From Sinomonas atrocyanea (GTDB taxonomy: Bacteria; Actinomycetota; Actinomycetes; Actinomycetales; Micrococcaceae): a stretch of 64,000 bases of DNA. Made by a program: the position numbers and the translations under genes. Every line of letters begins with the position of its first letter. Position 1 is the stretch's first letter. The stretch lies in the NCBI RefSeq assembly GCF_030811715.1, contig NZ_JAUSRH010000011.1, forward strand, positions 62,001 to 126,000. The letters are read 5' to 3'. Shown in pieces: positions 517 through 63,375 of the stretch. The notes beneath the pieces are model-generated. The model ran no database searches, had not been told where the DNA came from, and saw only the letters and a program-made list of their open reading frames with translations.

Positions 517-720
517 TTGAGGAGCCACGTTCGTCGGATTGAGGAGCCACGTCCGTCGGGTTGAGGAGCCACGTCCGTCGCCATGAGGAGCCACGTCCGT
601 CGGGTTGAGGAGCCACGTCCGTCGCCATGAGGAGCCACACCCGTCGAGGCGACTCCTCGACGCGACGTGACTGACTCCTCGAGGGCACGGACATGGCTCC
701 TTGAGGGAACGTAGGTGACT
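517..720. repeat. 22-bp tandem repeat array with degenerate inverted copies
   Basis: Six units with an exact 22-bp period begin at 517, 539, 561, 583, 605 and 627; the consensus core is TTGAGGAGCCACGTCCGTCG. From about 650 to 720 weaker copies run in the opposite direction (GACTCCTCGA, ACATGGCTCCTTGAG, GGTGACTCCTCAG), so the whole region can fold back on itself. It lies between two genes on the same strand and fills the gap up to the ribosome-binding site of the next gene. The same unit recurs at 63288-63375. Function is unknown; transcription termination or a protein-binding array are possible. Confidence 0.9.
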
Positions 721-747
721 CCTCAGCGACTGGGGGAGGATGGTTCC

Positions 748-14955: not shown

Positions 14956-14972
14956 GCGCCCTGCCCCCACCC

Positions 14973-15111
14973 GTTGAGGGGTCATGTCCACACGTTGAGG
15001 GGTCATGTCCACACGTTGAGGGGTCATGTCCCTAGGCCGTTGCCGCGGGGTTCGCGGGGACATGACCCCACAACCTTGGGACATGACCCCACAACACAGG
15101 GACATGACCCC
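14973..15111. repeat. 21-bp repeat array in inverted halves between convergent genes
   Basis: Three forward units GTTGAGGGGTCATGTCC start at 14973, 14994 and 15015, and three reversed copies GGGACATGACCCC start at 15057, 15078 and 15099. Both halves have an exact 21-bp period. The array can form a long stem around the centre near 15040. It fills the gap between mtlD and the convergent dehydrogenase gene, whose stop codon begins at the last base of the array, so a bidirectional terminator is a reasonable guess. The same core occurs at 63237-63287. Confidence 0.9.
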
Positions 15112-24180: not shown

Positions 24181-25344
24181 GTGCTCGTCCTCGTCATCAA
24201 CTCCGGCTCGTCCTCCCTGAAGTACCAGCTCCGCGACGTCGGGGAGGCCGACGGCGGGCGGGAACCGGAGCCCGCGGTCCTCGCCGAGGGGCTGATCGAG
24301 CGGATCGGGTTCGACGGCGGCCCTGCGGACCACGCCGAGGCCCTCGGCCAGGTCGATGCGGAGCTGCACCGCGTGCTCGGGGAGCGCGCCGTCGACGCCG
24401 TGGGCCACCGGGTGGTCCACGGAGGCGAGCGGTTCTCCGAGCCGGTCCTCGTGAACAACGAGATCACCCGCGCGATCGAGCGGCTCAACCCGCTCGCACC
24501 GCTCCACAACCCCGCGAACGTCCTCGGCCTGAGGGAGATCGCCTCCAAGTGGCCGGACATGCCGCAGGTGGCCGTCTTCGACACCGCCTACCACCGCACC
24601 ATCCCCGAGCACGCCTGGCGGTACGCCGTCCCGGACTGGCTGTACACCCACCACGGGATCCGCCGCTACGGCTTCCACGGCACCTCGCACCAGTACGTCG
24701 CCGCGCGCGCCGCCGAGCTGATGGGGATCGCCCCGGAGGAGTTCGACGGCGTGGTCCTCCACCTCGGCAACGGCGTGTCCGCCACCGCGGTGCGCGGCGG
24801 GGAGAGCATCGACACGTCCATGGGCTTCACGCCGCTCGAGGGCCTCGTCATGGGCACGCGCTCCGGCGACCTCGACCCCTCGATCCTCGTGTTCCTCGCC
24901 CGGCAGGGGCACGGCCCGGACGAGGTCGACGACCTGCTCAACCGCGAGTCCGGGCTCAAGGCGCTCGCGGGCTCGAACGACATGCGCACCGTGGTGGAGG
25001 CCGCCGAGGGCGGGGACCGGCGCGCGCAGGTGGCCCTCGACGTCGCCTCGTACCGCCTTGCGAAGTACATCGGCGGCTACCACGTGGCCGTCGGCGGGGC
25101 CAAGGCCATCGTGTTCACCGCCGGCATCGGCGAGAACTCCGCCCCGTTCCGGGCACGCGTCGCGGCCCGCCTCGCCGCGCTCGGCGTCGTGCTCGACGAC
25201 GACCTCAACGCCGTCCGCTCGAAGGAGCCCCGCGCCATCTCGGCGCCCGATTCAGCCATCCCGCTCCTGGTGGTTCCCACCGACGAGGAGAGGGCGATCG
25301 CGGAGGCGACGGCCGCCGTCGTCCGCGCCGCGGTTCCCCGCTAG
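24181..25344 (+). CDS. ackA: Acetate kinase
   Basis: AckA converts acetyl phosphate and ADP to acetate and ATP. The 387-residue protein has the N-terminal phosphate loop LVINSGSSSLKYQL, VFDTAYHRTIPEHAWRYAVP with the catalytic region, RRYGFHGTSHQYV, LHLGNGVSATAVRGG and the C-terminal FTAGIGENSAPFRARV block, all diagnostic for acetate kinase. It starts with GTG behind AAGGAG, 55 bases after pta. It is followed directly by a 21-bp repeat array. Confidence 0.96.
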   Translation: MLVLVINSGSSSLKYQLRDVGEADGGREPEPAVLAEGLIERIGFDGGPADHAEALGQVDAELHRVLGERAVDAVGHRVVHGGERFSEPVLVNNEITRAIERLNPLAPLHNPANVLGLREIASKWPDMPQVAVFDTAYHRTIPEHAWRYAVPDWLYTHHGIRRYGFHGTSHQYVAARAAELMGIAPEEFDGVVLHLGNGVSATAVRGGESIDTSMGFTPLEGLVMGTRSGDLDPSILVFLARQGHGPDEVDDLLNRESGLKALAGSNDMRTVVEAAEGGDRRAQVALDVASYRLAKYIGGYHVAVGGAKAIVFTAGIGENSAPFRARVAARLAALGVVLDDDLNAVRSKEPRAISAPDSAIPLLVVPTDEERAIAEATAAVVRAAVPR

Positions 25345-25354
25345 CCCGCCCGCC

Positions 25355-25415
25355 GAGGTCACCCCGGGAGTGCGCGAGGTCACCCCGGGAGTGCGCGAGG
25401 TCACCCCGTGGGCTG
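25355..25415 (+). repeat. 21-bp tandem repeat array, GAGGTCACCCC family
   Basis: Three units with core GAGGTCACCCCG start at 25355, 25376 and 25397 (exact 21-bp period, unit GAGGTCACCCCGGGAGTGCG plus one base). It lies 11 bases after the ackA stop. A 17-of-21 match to this unit is found inside the coding sequence of the E2 gene at 42508-42570. Confidence 0.85.
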
Positions 25416-25510
25416 GGCCACACGCACGGCCGGGCCGCCCCGGCGCGGGCATACACTTGACGGTTGTTCCGGCATCGACGCCGCGACAGTCGACCTCGAA
25501 GGGCCCCCTT

Positions 25511-39016: not shown

Positions 39017-39038
39017 CCCTCCCGCCCGCCGCTGGCCG

Positions 39039-39278
39039 TTTCGGGTACGCATCTCGTCGGGTCTTCCGGGTTTCGGGTACGCATCTCGTCGCACTTTGGC
39101 CTTTGCTGGTACGCACGACGCCGGGTGGCCGGCCCGCCCGGGCCGGGCACCCGCCGTCGTGCGCGCCGGCCTGTACCCGAGAGCCGAATACCGCGACGAG
39201 ATGCGTGCCCGAAAGCTCAAATCGGCGACGAGATGCGTACCCGAAAGCTCGAATCGGCGACGAGATGCGTACCCGAAA
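39039..39278. repeat. 32-bp repeat array in inverted halves around a central hairpin
   Basis: TTTCGGGTACGCATCTCGTC plus G occurs at 39039 and 39071 and its reverse complement at 39194, 39226 and 39258; both halves have an exact 32-bp period. Between them an imperfect 24-bp inverted repeat (22 of 24 paired, loop CC) spans 39113-39162, beginning GCACGACG. The whole 240 bp forms nested inverted repeats between the convergent gad and lrp genes, so termination of both is a likely effect. Confidence 0.9.
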
Positions 39279-42228: not shown

Positions 42229-43752
42229 ATGGCGACCGCACTGACCGCCCAGGGCGGCACTGCCCGGAACGCGACGGGCCAGAGGACGTTCCTGCTGCCG
42301 GACCTCGGGGAGGGCCTGACCGAGGCCGAGCTCGTGCGCTGGCTCGTGGCCGTGGGGGACACCGTCGCGGTGGACCAGCCTGTGGCCGAGGTCGAGACCG
42401 CGAAGGCGATCGTGGAGGTGCCCACGCCGTACGGCGGCACCGTCGCGCAGCTGCACGGCGAGGCCGGGGCGACGATCGACGTCGGCACCCCCCTCATCAC
42501 CATCGCCGAGGTCACCCCGTCTGCGCGCGAGGTCACCCCGTCTGAGGCCGAGGTCGGGGCGTCGGCGGGCGAGGAGTACCGCACCGAGGAGCGGGCCGGG
42601 GCGCGCCAGCCGAGCCAGGCCTCGGGCTCCGGGAACGTGCTCATCGGCTACGGCACGCCCGCCGGGACGGCAGGCGGCCGCACCCGGCGACGCAAGGGGG
42701 CCGCGCCGTCGTCCGCTCCCGCTGCCGCGGCACCCGCACGCACGACGGCGTCGGAGCAGGCCGTGCGCGTCGTGTCGCCGATCGTGCGCCGGCTGGCCCG
42801 CGACCTCAACGTGGCGCTCGCCGCCGTGTCGGGGACAGGCCCCAACGGTCTCATCATGCGCCGCGACGTCGAGTCGGCCGGGGTGACGTCGGTGTCCCAG
42901 GGAGTGACCTCGGCGTCCCAGGGGGTGACGTCGGTGTCCCAGGGGGTGACCTCGGCGCCCCAGGGGGTGACGTCGGCGTCCCAGGGGGTGACGTCGGCGT
43001 CCCAGGGGGCGACTTCGGCGGGGGAGGTGGACGCGCGCACCGGGCTGGGCGTCGCCGCCCGGACCCCGGTCGCAGGGGTCCGCAAGGCCGTCGCGCAGGC
43101 GATGGTCCGTTCCCGCACCGAGATCCCCGAGGCCACGGTCTGGGTCGACGTGGACGCGACGGAGCTCGTGCGCCTGCGGGCAGACCTCAAGCGCCGCGAC
43201 CCGGAGTCGGCGCCGAGCCTGCTCGCGTTCATCGCCCGCTTCGTGCTCGCGGGCCTCGCCAAGTACCCAGAGCTCAACACCCGCATCGAGGGGACCGGCG
43301 ACGGCGGCCAGGAGATCGTCCGGTTCGACGGCGTGAACCTCGGCTTCGCGGCGCAGACGGACCGCGGGCTCGTGGTCCCGGCCATCCGCGGCGCCCACGC
43401 GATGAGCGCCCGCCAGCTCGACGGCGAGTTCCGCCGCCTCACGGCCCTCGCACGGGACGGCAAGGCCTCGCCCGCCGATCTCACCGGAGGCACGTTCACG
43501 CTGAACAACTACGGCGTCTTCGGCGTGGACGGCAGCGCCGCGATCATCAACCACCCCGAGGCGGCGATCCTCGGCGTCGGCCGGATCATCGACCGGCCCT
43601 GGGCGGTGGACGGCGCCCTCGCGGTGCGCAAGGTCGTCCAGCTGACGCTCACGTTCGACCACCGCGTCTGCGACGGGGGCACGGCCGGCGGGTTCCTGCG
43701 GTTCGTGGCCGACGCGGTCGAGCAGCCCGGCGGCATCCTCGCAGACCTGTAG
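42229..43752 (+). CDS. Dihydrolipoamide acyltransferase (E2) with repeat-derived linkers
   Basis: E2 carries the acyl group on lipoate and transfers it to CoA. The 507-residue protein has one lipoyl domain (about 13-90) with Lys59 in ETAKAIV, a peripheral-subunit-binding domain (VVSPIVRRLARDLNVALAAVSGTGPNG, about 182-215) and a catalytic domain with His478 in DHRVCDG. Both linkers contain 7-residue repeats encoded by 21-bp units: EVTPSAR/EVTPSEA after the lipoyl domain and seven GVTSASQ-like units (about 218-266) before the catalytic domain. These differ from the usual Ala/Pro linkers. No E3 gene is adjacent. Confidence 0.93.
   Translation: MATALTAQGGTARNATGQRTFLLPDLGEGLTEAELVRWLVAVGDTVAVDQPVAEVETAKAIVEVPTPYGGTVAQLHGEAGATIDVGTPLITIAEVTPSAREVTPSEAEVGASAGEEYRTEERAGARQPSQASGSGNVLIGYGTPAGTAGGRTRRRKGAAPSSAPAAAAPARTTASEQAVRVVSPIVRRLARDLNVALAAVSGTGPNGLIMRRDVESAGVTSVSQGVTSASQGVTSVSQGVTSAPQGVTSASQGVTSASQGATSAGEVDARTGLGVAARTPVAGVRKAVAQAMVRSRTEIPEATVWVDVDATELVRLRADLKRRDPESAPSLLAFIARFVLAGLAKYPELNTRIEGTGDGGQEIVRFDGVNLGFAAQTDRGLVVPAIRGAHAMSARQLDGEFRRLTALARDGKASPADLTGGTFTLNNYGVFGVDGSAAIINHPEAAILGVGRIIDRPWAVDGALAVRKVVQLTLTFDHRVCDGGTAGGFLRFVADAVEQPGGILADL
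42508..42570 (+). repeat. In-frame 21-bp repeats in the first E2 linker
   Basis: Units start at 42508, 42529 and 42550; the first two share GAGGTCACCCCGTCTG. The unit matches the noncoding array after ackA (25355) at 17 of 21 positions and has the same period. Confidence 0.8.
42880..43026 (+). repeat. In-frame 21-bp repeats in the second E2 linker
   Basis: Seven units start at 42880 and follow every 21 bases (GGGGTGACGTCGGCGTCCCA plus G; last copy degenerate). Read on the other strand the unit contains GAGGTCACCCC, the core of the ackA array and of the first linker, so the same family appears in both orientations in one gene. Confidence 0.85.
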
Positions 43753-56461: not shown

Positions 56462-58543
56462 TTGTCTGATCCCCGCCGAACCTTCCTGCCGATGCTGGCC
56501 CACGTCCGGGGCAAGCGCAGCGCCGTCACGTGCGCGCTCAAGTGCGACAACGCCTGCCTCAACGAGGTCTGCAACGGCTCCGGCAACAGCTACTTCCGCG
56601 ACATCGCCGCCGGCGCCATCTCGCGCCGCTCGGCTCTGGGCCTGGGCCTCGCGGGCGCCCTCACCCTCGCCTTCACCGGCGGCAGGGCCGAGGCGGCCGC
56701 GACCCGGCTCCCGCCCGCGGCCCACGGGACGAACAGCCCGCTGGACTTCACCCCGATCAAGCCCGTGGACCGGCTTGCCGACGAGTTCACCGTGCCCCGG
56801 GGCTACGCCTGGCAGCCCATCGTCCGCTGGGGCGACCCGCTCTTCGCCGACGCCCCCGCGTTCGACATCGAGAACCAGACCGCCGAGGCGCAGGCACGCC
56901 AGTTCGGCTACAACAACGACTACACGGACATCATCCGGCTCGACGGCCCGAACGGCCGGCGCGCGGTCCTCGTGTCCAACCACGAGTACACGAACGAGAA
57001 CATCATGTTCCCGGCGGCCCAGCTCGCCGGGGATGCCGCCCGCGTCCGTGCGGTCGCGCGTGCGGCGCACGGCCTCTCCGTCGTCGAGCTCGCCCGCCAG
57101 AACAAGAATGCGCCGTGGCGCTACGTCCAGGGAGCCCCGCTCAACCGGCGCTACCTCCTCGACACCGAGTACGAGCTCACCGGCCCCGCCGCCGGGTCCG
57201 CGCTCCTGCGGACGTCCGCAGATCCGGACGGCCGGACCGTCAGGGGCACGCTCGGCAACTGCGCGGGCGGGACCACGCCGTGGGGCACCGTCCTCTCCGG
57301 CGAGGAGAACTTCAACGGCTACTTCCGCACCCCCGGCACCTCGGCTGCCGACAGGCGCTACGGCCTCTCCGACAAGGGCACCGTGCGCGGCTGGGAACTG
57401 GACGATCCCCGATTCGACGCCCGCACCCCCGGCTACGAGAACGAGCCGAACCGCTTCGGCTGGGTCGTGGAGGTCGACCCCCTGGACCCCACCTCCACGC
57501 CGAAGAAGCACACGGCGCTCGGCCGCTTCAAGCACGAGGGCGCCAACGTGCACATCGCCGCAAACGGCAGGGCCGTGGCGTACTCGGGCGACGACGAGCG
57601 CTTCGACTACCTGTACAAGTTCGTCTCCAAGGGCACCTACCGGCCGGGGAACTCGGCCGCGGCCCGCGCCCACAACAAGACCCTCCTGACCGAGGGCAAC
57701 CTCTACGTGGCAAAGTTCACCGGGGATTCCCCGGCAGCCGAGATCGGCGGCACGGGTGCCCTCCCCGCCGACGGGGTTTTCGACGGCCGCGGCGCCTGGC
57801 TCCCGCTCGTCGTCGACGGCCGCAGCGCGATCGAGGGCATGGGCGTCGAGGAGGTGCTGGTCCACACGCGCCTGGCCGCGGACAAGGCCGGCGCCACCAA
57901 GATGGACCGCTGCGAGGACGTCCAGCCCCACCCCGGCACGGGCAAGGTGTACGTGGTCTGCACCAACAACACCGACCGCGGCAAGCCCGGCAAGGAGGGC
58001 CCCACCGAGGTCAACCCGCGCGCCCTCAACCGGGACGGCCACATCGTCGAGATCACCGAGGACGGCGGCGACCAGACGGCCACCACCTTCGGCTGGAACC
58101 TGCTCCTCGTGTGCGGCGACCCCGCGGCGAACCAGGCGACCTACTTCGCCGGCTACCCCCAGGACAAGGTCTCGCCGATCTCCTGCCCGGACAACGTCGC
58201 GTTCGACTCCTCGGGCCACCTCTGGATCGCCACCGACGGTGCCCCCAGCACGATCGGCTACAACGACGGGCTCTTCAGGGTCACCCTCGAGGGGCCGGAG
58301 CGCGGCAAGGTCGAGCAGTTCCTCTCCGTGCCCCGCGACGCGGAGACCTGCGGCCCGATCGTCCACGACGAGGAGCGCCACGTGTACGTCTCGGTCCAGC
58401 ACCCGGGCGAGGAGGGCACGTTCGAGGGCCCGCACTCCCTCTTCCCGGACTACGTCGGCGAGGGTGCCGCCCCGGCCCGCGGCCAGGCCCGCACGCCGCG
58501 CCCCTCGGTGGTCCAGGTCCTCCCGGCGGTCCACGCCAAGTAG
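56462..58543 (+). CDS. phoX: PhoX-family secreted alkaline phosphatase
   Basis: A 693-residue PhoX (DUF839) protein, a calcium- and iron-dependent phosphatase that releases phosphate from organic esters outside the cell. It shows the family N-terminus with conserved Cys (TCALKCDNACLNEVC), a Tat motif (AISRRSALGLGLAGALTLAF), then VRWGDPLF, VSNHEYTN, NCAGGTTPWGTVLSGEENFNGYF with the metal-binding Glu residues, RFKHEGANVHIA, and DNVAFDSSGHLWIATDG. The TTG start at 56462 has GAAGGA 7 bases upstream. A PHO-box-like repeat in its promoter supports induction by phosphate starvation. Confidence 0.92.
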   Translation: MSDPRRTFLPMLAHVRGKRSAVTCALKCDNACLNEVCNGSGNSYFRDIAAGAISRRSALGLGLAGALTLAFTGGRAEAAATRLPPAAHGTNSPLDFTPIKPVDRLADEFTVPRGYAWQPIVRWGDPLFADAPAFDIENQTAEAQARQFGYNNDYTDIIRLDGPNGRRAVLVSNHEYTNENIMFPAAQLAGDAARVRAVARAAHGLSVVELARQNKNAPWRYVQGAPLNRRYLLDTEYELTGPAAGSALLRTSADPDGRTVRGTLGNCAGGTTPWGTVLSGEENFNGYFRTPGTSAADRRYGLSDKGTVRGWELDDPRFDARTPGYENEPNRFGWVVEVDPLDPTSTPKKHTALGRFKHEGANVHIAANGRAVAYSGDDERFDYLYKFVSKGTYRPGNSAAARAHNKTLLTEGNLYVAKFTGDSPAAEIGGTGALPADGVFDGRGAWLPLVVDGRSAIEGMGVEEVLVHTRLAADKAGATKMDRCEDVQPHPGTGKVYVVCTNNTDRGKPGKEGPTEVNPRALNRDGHIVEITEDGGDQTATTFGWNLLLVCGDPAANQATYFAGYPQDKVSPISCPDNVAFDSSGHLWIATDGAPSTIGYNDGLFRVTLEGPERGKVEQFLSVPRDAETCGPIVHDEERHVYVSVQHPGEEGTFEGPHSLFPDYVGEGAAPARGQARTPRPSVVQVLPAVHAK

Positions 58544-63216: not shown

Positions 63217-63236
63217 CGCCAGCCGCAGGCCCGACA

Positions 63237-63287
63237 GCAGGGACATGACCCCTCACCGCTACCCACGGTGAGGGGTCATGTCCCTGC
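63237..63287. terminator. Perfect 22-bp inverted repeat built from the GGGTCATGTCCC repeat unit
   Basis: GCAGGGACATGACCCCTCAC plus two bases pairs perfectly with its reverse complement across the 7-base loop CTACCCA, 21 bases after the ATPase stop. Its arms contain the same core, GAGGGGTCATGTCC, as the array at 14973-15111. Confidence 0.8.
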
Positions 63288-63375
63288 GTTGTGGAGCCAC
63301 GTCCGTGGCGTTGAGGAGCCACGTCCGTGGCGTCGAGGAGCCACCTCCGTGGCGTTGAGGAGCCACCGCACCGCC
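63288..63375. repeat. 22-bp tandem repeat array, second copy of the GAGGAGCCACGTCC family
   Basis: Units start at 63288, 63310, 63332 and 63354 (22-bp period; consensus GTTGAGGAGCCACGTCCGTG plus GC). They match the array at 517-648 and abut the hairpin made of the related GGGTCATGTCC unit. The last unit ends next to the stop codon of the convergent isochorismate synthase gene. Confidence 0.88.

Follow-up and report, generated by a model that had tools for sequence, protein, structure and literature searches.

Facing arrays of a 21-bp repeat in the E2 acyltransferase gene of Sinomonas atrocyanea and a candidate partner, an AbiEi-like nuclease protein

Repeat arrays in the E2 gene and in other proteins

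The window analysed here is a stretch of 64,000 nucleotides from Sinomonas atrocyanea (contig NZ_JAUSRH010000011.1, positions 62,001 to 126,000), and the subject of this work is a family of 21-bp repeats, F1, that forms arrays in it, two of them within the gene of an E2 acyltransferase (42229..43752, + strand). According to Pfam, this protein has a lipoyl domain (residues 21-92), an E3-binding domain (182-215) and a catalytic domain (277-504), and from these positions it follows that both arrays are located in linkers. Array one (42506..42555, + strand; unit GAGGTCACCCCG..., period 21, EVTPSAR-type heptads) lies between the lipoyl and E3-binding domains, and array two (42870..43020, - strand; GVTSASQ-type heptads) between the E3-binding and catalytic domains, with seven units that face those of linker 1; together they make up one facing pair around the E3-binding domain. 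The extent of array two was 42880-43020 (6.7 copies) with Tandem Repeats Finder (TRF) and 42870-43016 (seven units) with a position weight matrix (PWM), in agreement with the seven opposite units of a preliminary description of this DNA; the same description had counted three copies in linker 1, of which two (42508 and 42529) are good F1 copies, but the third (42550) has an altered core. Another F1 array (25354..25417, + strand) is found 10 bp past the stop codon of ackA (24181-25344); its three units start at 25355, 25376 and 25397, as had been reported, and no facing partner unit is present within 1300 bp. The 17/21 identity between the first intergenic unit and the first E2 unit was recovered on reading both sequences, and the central observation, a dispersed repeat family present in frame and in both orientations in a coding gene, was confirmed.

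The family extends over the whole genome (G000, 4.23 Mb), which was compared within a set of 15 Sinomonas genomes, G000 included. The 12-mer GAGGTCACCCCG occurs in 64 exact copies and its reversed control in none, pairs of units with a period of 21 were detected 128 times versus 3 in the control, and the 11-bp core, with at most one mismatch, was found 13 times in the window, whereas 100 shuffles averaged 3.2 and never exceeded 8. These three comparisons indicate that the arrays are not due to chance, and the earlier reservation that the intergenic unit might occur nowhere else does not hold. The F1 consensus is GAGGTCACCCCGTGGGAGCGC, with a unit spacing of 21 and few exceptions. Between arrays the similarity is 0.911 for the core and 0.456 for the spacers, the latter rising to 0.667 within an array, a pattern which indicates that local duplication enlarges the arrays while the core stays constant. 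Tandem growth is therefore real; nevertheless, ordinary growth of a linker minisatellite, or a chance likeness of GC-rich low-complexity repeats, is already refuted as a full account and has a negligible probability, given the 64 copies against none, the abundance of the core throughout the genome, and the facing order and dialect matching described below. Across the 15 genomes, the period-21 F1 pattern gives high counts in five (128-255) and no more than 40 in ten, with the reservation that the count of G008 may reflect another unit, since the one G008 match read is F2-like. A second dialect of the same period, GAVRTSGGG (GGG), is present in G004 (42), G006 (120), G008 (140) and G012 (53), with at most 4 elsewhere. 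An unbiased 400 kb of G005 contains 8 arrays, which extrapolates to about 80 per genome. In a distant phylum, two Candidatus Binatia loci (L180 and L187) contain arrays of GTGACGTCACCCCGGTCACCC.

Units of this kind occupy both E2 linkers in 11 of the 15 Sinomonas species; they run forward in linker 1, in reverse in linker 2, and are much decayed in G003. Their number varies from species to species, as does their dialect; within one species, both linkers use related units. The family is missing from the E2 linkers of G001, G007, G013 and G014, so that non-repeat linkers do exist at this place; both the variation in number and such linkers had been named beforehand as points to look for. Linker 1 of G007 (L095), where neither F1 nor GGG arrays occur, has a different 21-nt repeat (GGGGTAACCGGTGCGGTCCAT-like). 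Protein reading of 27 E2 loci from other Micrococcaceae genera, linker 2 of L334 excluded, revealed no EVTP/GVTS-type heptads. In one of these genera (G023, L338) both E2 linkers repeat the peptide SLLGAGAPPSTTG, which suggests that a further repeat family makes use of these linkers.

The E2 protein is one of several in which arrays occur in frame, with heptads that depend on the reading frame (EVTP, RSPR, GVTS or RGDL). The others, whose names rest on Pfam matches and recall, are PabB, LutC, a DEAD-box helicase, HrpA, a phosphopantetheinyl transferase, and DsbD-like, MazG-domain, DUF4194 (JetB-like) and PRTase/TRSP/StiP proteins. Ten array proteins were scanned and nine had a Pfam match; in eight of them the arrays are outside the matched stretches, in contrast with HrpA, where the array is inside DUF3418. 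In the DsbD-like protein it is probably located in a loop of the membrane domain. The DUF4194 gene, whose product we take to be a JetB/MksE-like, Wadjet-type protein, has facing arrays at both coding ends in L076, L155 and L172 (Pfam checked for L076).

A nuclease gene between facing arrays

In three loci (L059, L147 and L191) the same gene family, AbiEi_4 by Pfam, was found between facing arrays. Its product is a fusion of an AbiEi-like DNA-binding module with a Vsr/I-Bth0305I-like (EDxHD) nuclease domain, and the bracketed gene is homologous to one located beside arrays of Nocardioides luteus (27% identity, E 3e-17). A profile search recovered 162 family matches in 16 genomes, with 6-13 per Sinomonas genome. 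The top ortholog (461-597 bits) is present in G000 (at C3:150982-151938), G004, G005, G006, G008, G010, G011 and G012, and the other seven Sinomonas have no family match above 200 bits; that is, it is found in 8/8 species rich in F1 or GGG arrays and in 0/7 array-poor ones. All eight genes are bracketed by 21-bp arrays in the dialect of their own species, and for six of them the nearest arrays are 16-119 bp from the gene ends. Beside these six top orthologs there is no room for an AbiEii toxin gene, toxin families not having been searched for. The upstream neighbour is common to seven loci (in G008, just a 34-residue stretch) and the downstream neighbour to six, G000 and G005 sharing another. 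In an alignment (A2) of 33 of the 61 loci read plus L114, L359 and L362, residues E213 and D244 were present in 36/36 proteins, and so was an acid at position 255 or 257, a catalytic role being assumed for these residues. In the top orthologs E255 is the sole acid of these two positions, and several paralogs have Q, H or L there.

The AbiEi-like module brings to mind another origin, in which the proteins would be autoregulators whose operator repeats spread by ordinary duplication, with the nuclease being irrelevant. According to one report (PMC7319586), AbiEi binds to inverted repeats of 23 bp in the promoter of its own gene, and the arrays do adjoin the genes; however, they bracket both gene ends and not the promoter alone, and many arrays in facing order are far from the gene, for which reasons we regard this origin as improbable.

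The association is not restricted to the top ortholog. Of the 162 family matches, 61 loci were read, and in 19 of these the gene lies between facing arrays of one period with matching units, compared with 0/1000 random intervals; 22 have the same period on both sides when the unit match is not required (3/1000), and a looser k-mer count, with at least 5 shared copies, retained 18/61 loci versus 0/400. The bracketing units are F1/GGG (21 bp), F2 (21), F3-like (22), GGGGTCYCTGG (22), F4 (32) and a 19-bp unit, together with 21- and 32-bp units in Nocardioides albus. Each of the four repeat families of the window has a paralog bracketed by an identical or close unit. The F2 module (14967..15111) consists of a TTGAGGGGTCATGTCC array (+, 14967-15031) facing its reverse (-, 15057-15111), and this unit also brackets the nuclease paralog C11:131193-132005 of G000, about 5 kb outside the window. 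The F4 module (39033..39278; CGGGTACGCATCTCGTC, period 32; + 39033-39115 facing - 39173-39278) shares its unit with the flanks of G000 C2:307751-308572. For the F3 module (517..724; TTGAGGAGCCACGTCCGTCGG, period 22; + 517-646 facing - 651-724) the corresponding paralog, G000 C3:528233-529039, is bracketed by GTTGAGGAGTCACCTCCG, a close variant that is not identical. F4 copies are found in G000 (59), G002 (53), G003 (60) and G008 (9), and in none of the other 11 genomes; the three richest hold an F4-bracketed member (G000 C2:307751, G003 C4:265116 and, from coordinates only, G002 C1:1600135). A second F3 array of the window (63286..63366, +) stands directly beside a short, back-to-back inverted pair of F2 (about 63241-63285), both within 63235-63366; five back-to-back F2/F3 pairs, with gaps of 12-25 bp, are also present in G000, G002 and G003. 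Other inverted repeats (CCCCAGCTTTC at about 3260-3480 of L053; GAAAGCGGCACTT at about 3020-3190 of L075) were observed inside F1 modules, which therefore seem to be nested.

Facing arrays of 21-22-bp sites resemble the multi-site ends of transposons of the IS21 or Tn7 kind, in which case the nuclease would be a passenger. We consider this very improbable: different repeat families pair with different nuclease paralogs, native gene sequence lies between the two arrays in E2, PabB and others, and the best match to the IS21 transposase IstA in the same genome scored 35.7 bits against a cut-off of 160, other transposase families not having been searched. An IS21 element was rejected on this score.

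The dialect of the E2 arrays also matches that of the gene flanks, as the observed mean was reached by 2 of 40320 permutations, with cores chosen by regular expression. When the top orthologs are grouped by array dialect, including the GTCACCCC and RTCGGG orthologs, nine protein columns separate three dialects, a grouping that was the best of 45 (the next best gave 4); seven of the nine are within residues 1-60 (p 0.016). Residues 39, 40, 44 and 46, which separate the dialects, are on helix 39-48, which by analogy with AbiEi may be the recognition helix. In N. luteus (L114) and N. albus (L423), homologous nuclease genes at apparently the same locus have different flanking units.

Three of the seven array-poor top-ortholog loci were read. 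In G009 the orthologous site has apparent remnants of the left array, the gene's initial codons and a remnant of the right array; in G002 and G003 about 90-130 bp with array-like remnants are found. In these three species the locus looks like a deletion and not an empty site. The locus was not found in the G014 stretches, and for G001 and G013 no stretch of this kind was obtained. Units are fewer in G002 than in G000 at 7/7 counted loci (15 versus 35), a count that excludes L051, a locus with about 500 bp of other sequence in G002. Perfect E2 cores make up 8/20 units in three gene-less species and 30/43 in four F1 species with the gene.

Placement and facing order of the arrays

The placement of the arrays was studied in 31 loci of G000 (the window and 30 stretches) and in 58 loci of other Sinomonas, chosen for holding F1 units among the matches listed, and for this reason the results describe contexts and not genome frequencies; the sole unbiased sample is the 400 kb of G005, and genes were called with our own codon-usage script. 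From a total of 140 non-duplicate arrays, 47 are in called genes (one of them, at 58007-58069 of the window, looks spurious), 41 in convergent, 47 in tandem and 4 in divergent gaps, and one at an edge. The unbiased sample has 221 gaps of at least 40 bp: 27 convergent, 149 tandem and 45 divergent. The order of the arrays is nearly strict. Neighbouring F1 arrays of opposite orientation, no more than 1500 bp apart, face each other in 42 of 43 cases, and the exception sits between two facing modules; their spacings extend between -5 and 1191 bp. For 75/111 arrays, a partner unit in facing position was detected at no more than 1300 bp, and for 16 there is one on the other side; with a requirement of at least two units, these counts become 71 and 2. 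Among the listed places, facing order was found in 26/26 for F4, 11/11 for GGG and 6/6 for N. albus, where some runs are given by their ends only and rows without a nearby opposite neighbour were left out. RNA hairpin pairing between the linkers was rejected as an explanation, given that it does not predict a strict facing order and that the spacers of paired arrays are unmatched; known RNA families gave 0 Rfam matches in the window at the gathering score. A rule based on transcript orientation was likewise discarded: single arrays are evenly oriented in tandem (7 sense, 7 antisense) and coding contexts (12 and 12), and a sense lean (34/41 arrays, with respect to the nearer gene) appears in convergent gaps.

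This same lean is among the data that could be expected if the arrays, as sites of the same proteins, served the host in chromosome loops, insulation or a 3'-end function, being selected while the nuclease became minor or was lost. Pairs are also present at the same places across species (E2, PabB, JetB-like, PRTase), and convergent gaps are enriched and divergent ones nearly empty (41 and 4/92 arrays versus 27 and 45/221 gaps). On the other hand, 7/15 species dispense with the top ortholog, the wide range of spacings fits no single loop size, orientation with respect to transcription is even in tandem and coding contexts, and the putative catalytic residues remain conserved. We regard a host role as unlikely, albeit the strongest of the alternatives.

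The proposed nuclease-array system and its relatives

The arrays with their 21-bp phasing, the facing rule, the bracketing of the gene, the co-distribution and the dialect matching are computational observations, and judging by the last three, the nuclease-domain protein probably binds the array units, presumably with one protein per 21-bp repeat. Cutting or nicking between facing arrays, with self-spread, is hypothesized as the most economical account of the facing order and the spread. The E2 and ackA arrays would belong to a genome-wide family of cognate sites of a resident AbiEi-like/Vsr-like nuclease protein with paralog-specific repeats, a reading to which we assign a probability of about three in four. 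The gene of the winged-helix and Vsr/EDxHD protein sits between two facing arrays of its own unit, and copies of the array have accumulated, usually as facing pairs, at the 3' ends of genes and in those protein linkers that tolerate them. Several paralogs exist per genome, a subset with its own repeat language of 19 to 32 bp, which would explain the four families of the window. The nuclease domains of proteins bound on facing arrays could meet and nick or cut the DNA; repair or recombination would amplify and spread the arrays in a selfish cycle similar to that of RAYT/REPIN, tandem duplication would act inside them, and they would decay once the gene is lost. The E2 linkers look like recipients of one facing-array module, given the gene-bracketing arrays and the numerous intergenic ones, and the escape of a linker repeat to an intergenic site, contemplated in the preliminary description, finds no support. 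The interpretation offered there is partly supported; beyond it are the single facing pair, the near-strict facing order, the many other array-bearing proteins, the species dialects and the link to nuclease paralogs.

Several points weigh against this reading. Binding and cleavage are predictions from sequence, and the gene itself is not seen to move, because each of the eight top-ortholog loci has one or more flanking genes in common with the others. For 36/111 arrays no facing partner unit lies within 1300 bp, and around 30 of these 36 no other-dialect partner was apparent by TRF; F2 and F3, counted like the other families, face in only 12/17 listed places, and 42/61 family loci fail the strict bracketing test. 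The unpaired arrays of convergent gaps are also mostly sense to the nearer gene (13/16), and a transcription-linked orientation bias between convergent genes may play some part. The spacers of the + and - arrays of one module have a similarity of 0.484, close to that of unrelated arrays (0.456), which indicates that whole arrays are not duplicated in inverted form. The permutation and residue tests lose strength through the relatedness of the species (p = 0.016 only for the column enrichment), and none of the loci read yielded the gene that corresponds to the abundant GAGACGTCA unit of N. albus.

More tentatively, and with chances that we place somewhat below even, this could be a self-propagating nuclease-array system, each nuclease reading its own language of 19-32 bp and acting on facing arrays, that spreads through actinobacterial chromosomes by breakage and repair, and that invents in-frame linkers (E2, PabB, HrpA, JetB-like). 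A multi-copy actinobacterial protein family, for which no described role was found in the open-access literature, would gain a testable partner and a DNA target, and a large class of otherwise unexplained arrays would receive an explanation. A dispersed DNA repeat supplies protein linkers in both orientations and in several frames; with the facing rule and the species dialects, direct tests of specificity, cleavage and spread become possible. Searches of the open-access literature gave, among the records listed, nothing that links such arrays to AbiEi/DUF559 nucleases; an earlier description in subscription journals is possible.

Some known systems share one or another of these features. The AbiEi antitoxin of type IV toxin-antitoxin systems has a similar DNA-binding fold, but the protein described here has a C-terminal nuclease domain, and its arrays flank both gene ends, with sites genome-wide. 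The nuclease fold resembles that of the EDxHD/Vsr-like I-Bth0305I; in contrast, the gene is not in an intron, and the presumed sites are still found beside it, not lost through insertion. DNA uptake sequences of Neisseria and Pasteurellaceae also vary in dialect between species, and they too occur within coding sequence and as inverted pairs; they differ from the present arrays, which are tandem with a 21-bp period, number some 80 in the G005 genome when extrapolated, pair over up to about 1.2 kb and have a linked nuclease gene. Rickettsia palindromic elements are a repeat family that inserts in frame into proteins, whereas here tandem arrays without palindromic hairpins and with a linked nuclease gene are found. 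A close parallel is REPIN-RAYT. According to one account (PMC3733652), REP repeats are mostly downstream of genes, many in pairs of opposite orientation and some in genes, and the enzyme gene is flanked by the same repeats. Inverted pairs and a flanked enzyme gene are also present here, but the units are tandem, non-palindromic 21-bp sites in arrays, and the enzyme is an AbiEi-like plus Vsr-like nuclease. The REP-associated Y1 transposase (PF01797) was detected in 0/15 Sinomonas genomes, with named controls positive in 5/14, and for this reason membership was rejected; likewise, on reading the consensus GAGGTCACCCCGTGGGAGCGC, no conserved palindromic hairpin or GTAG/CGTC tag was found. The proposed system works like REPIN-RAYT without being a member of it.
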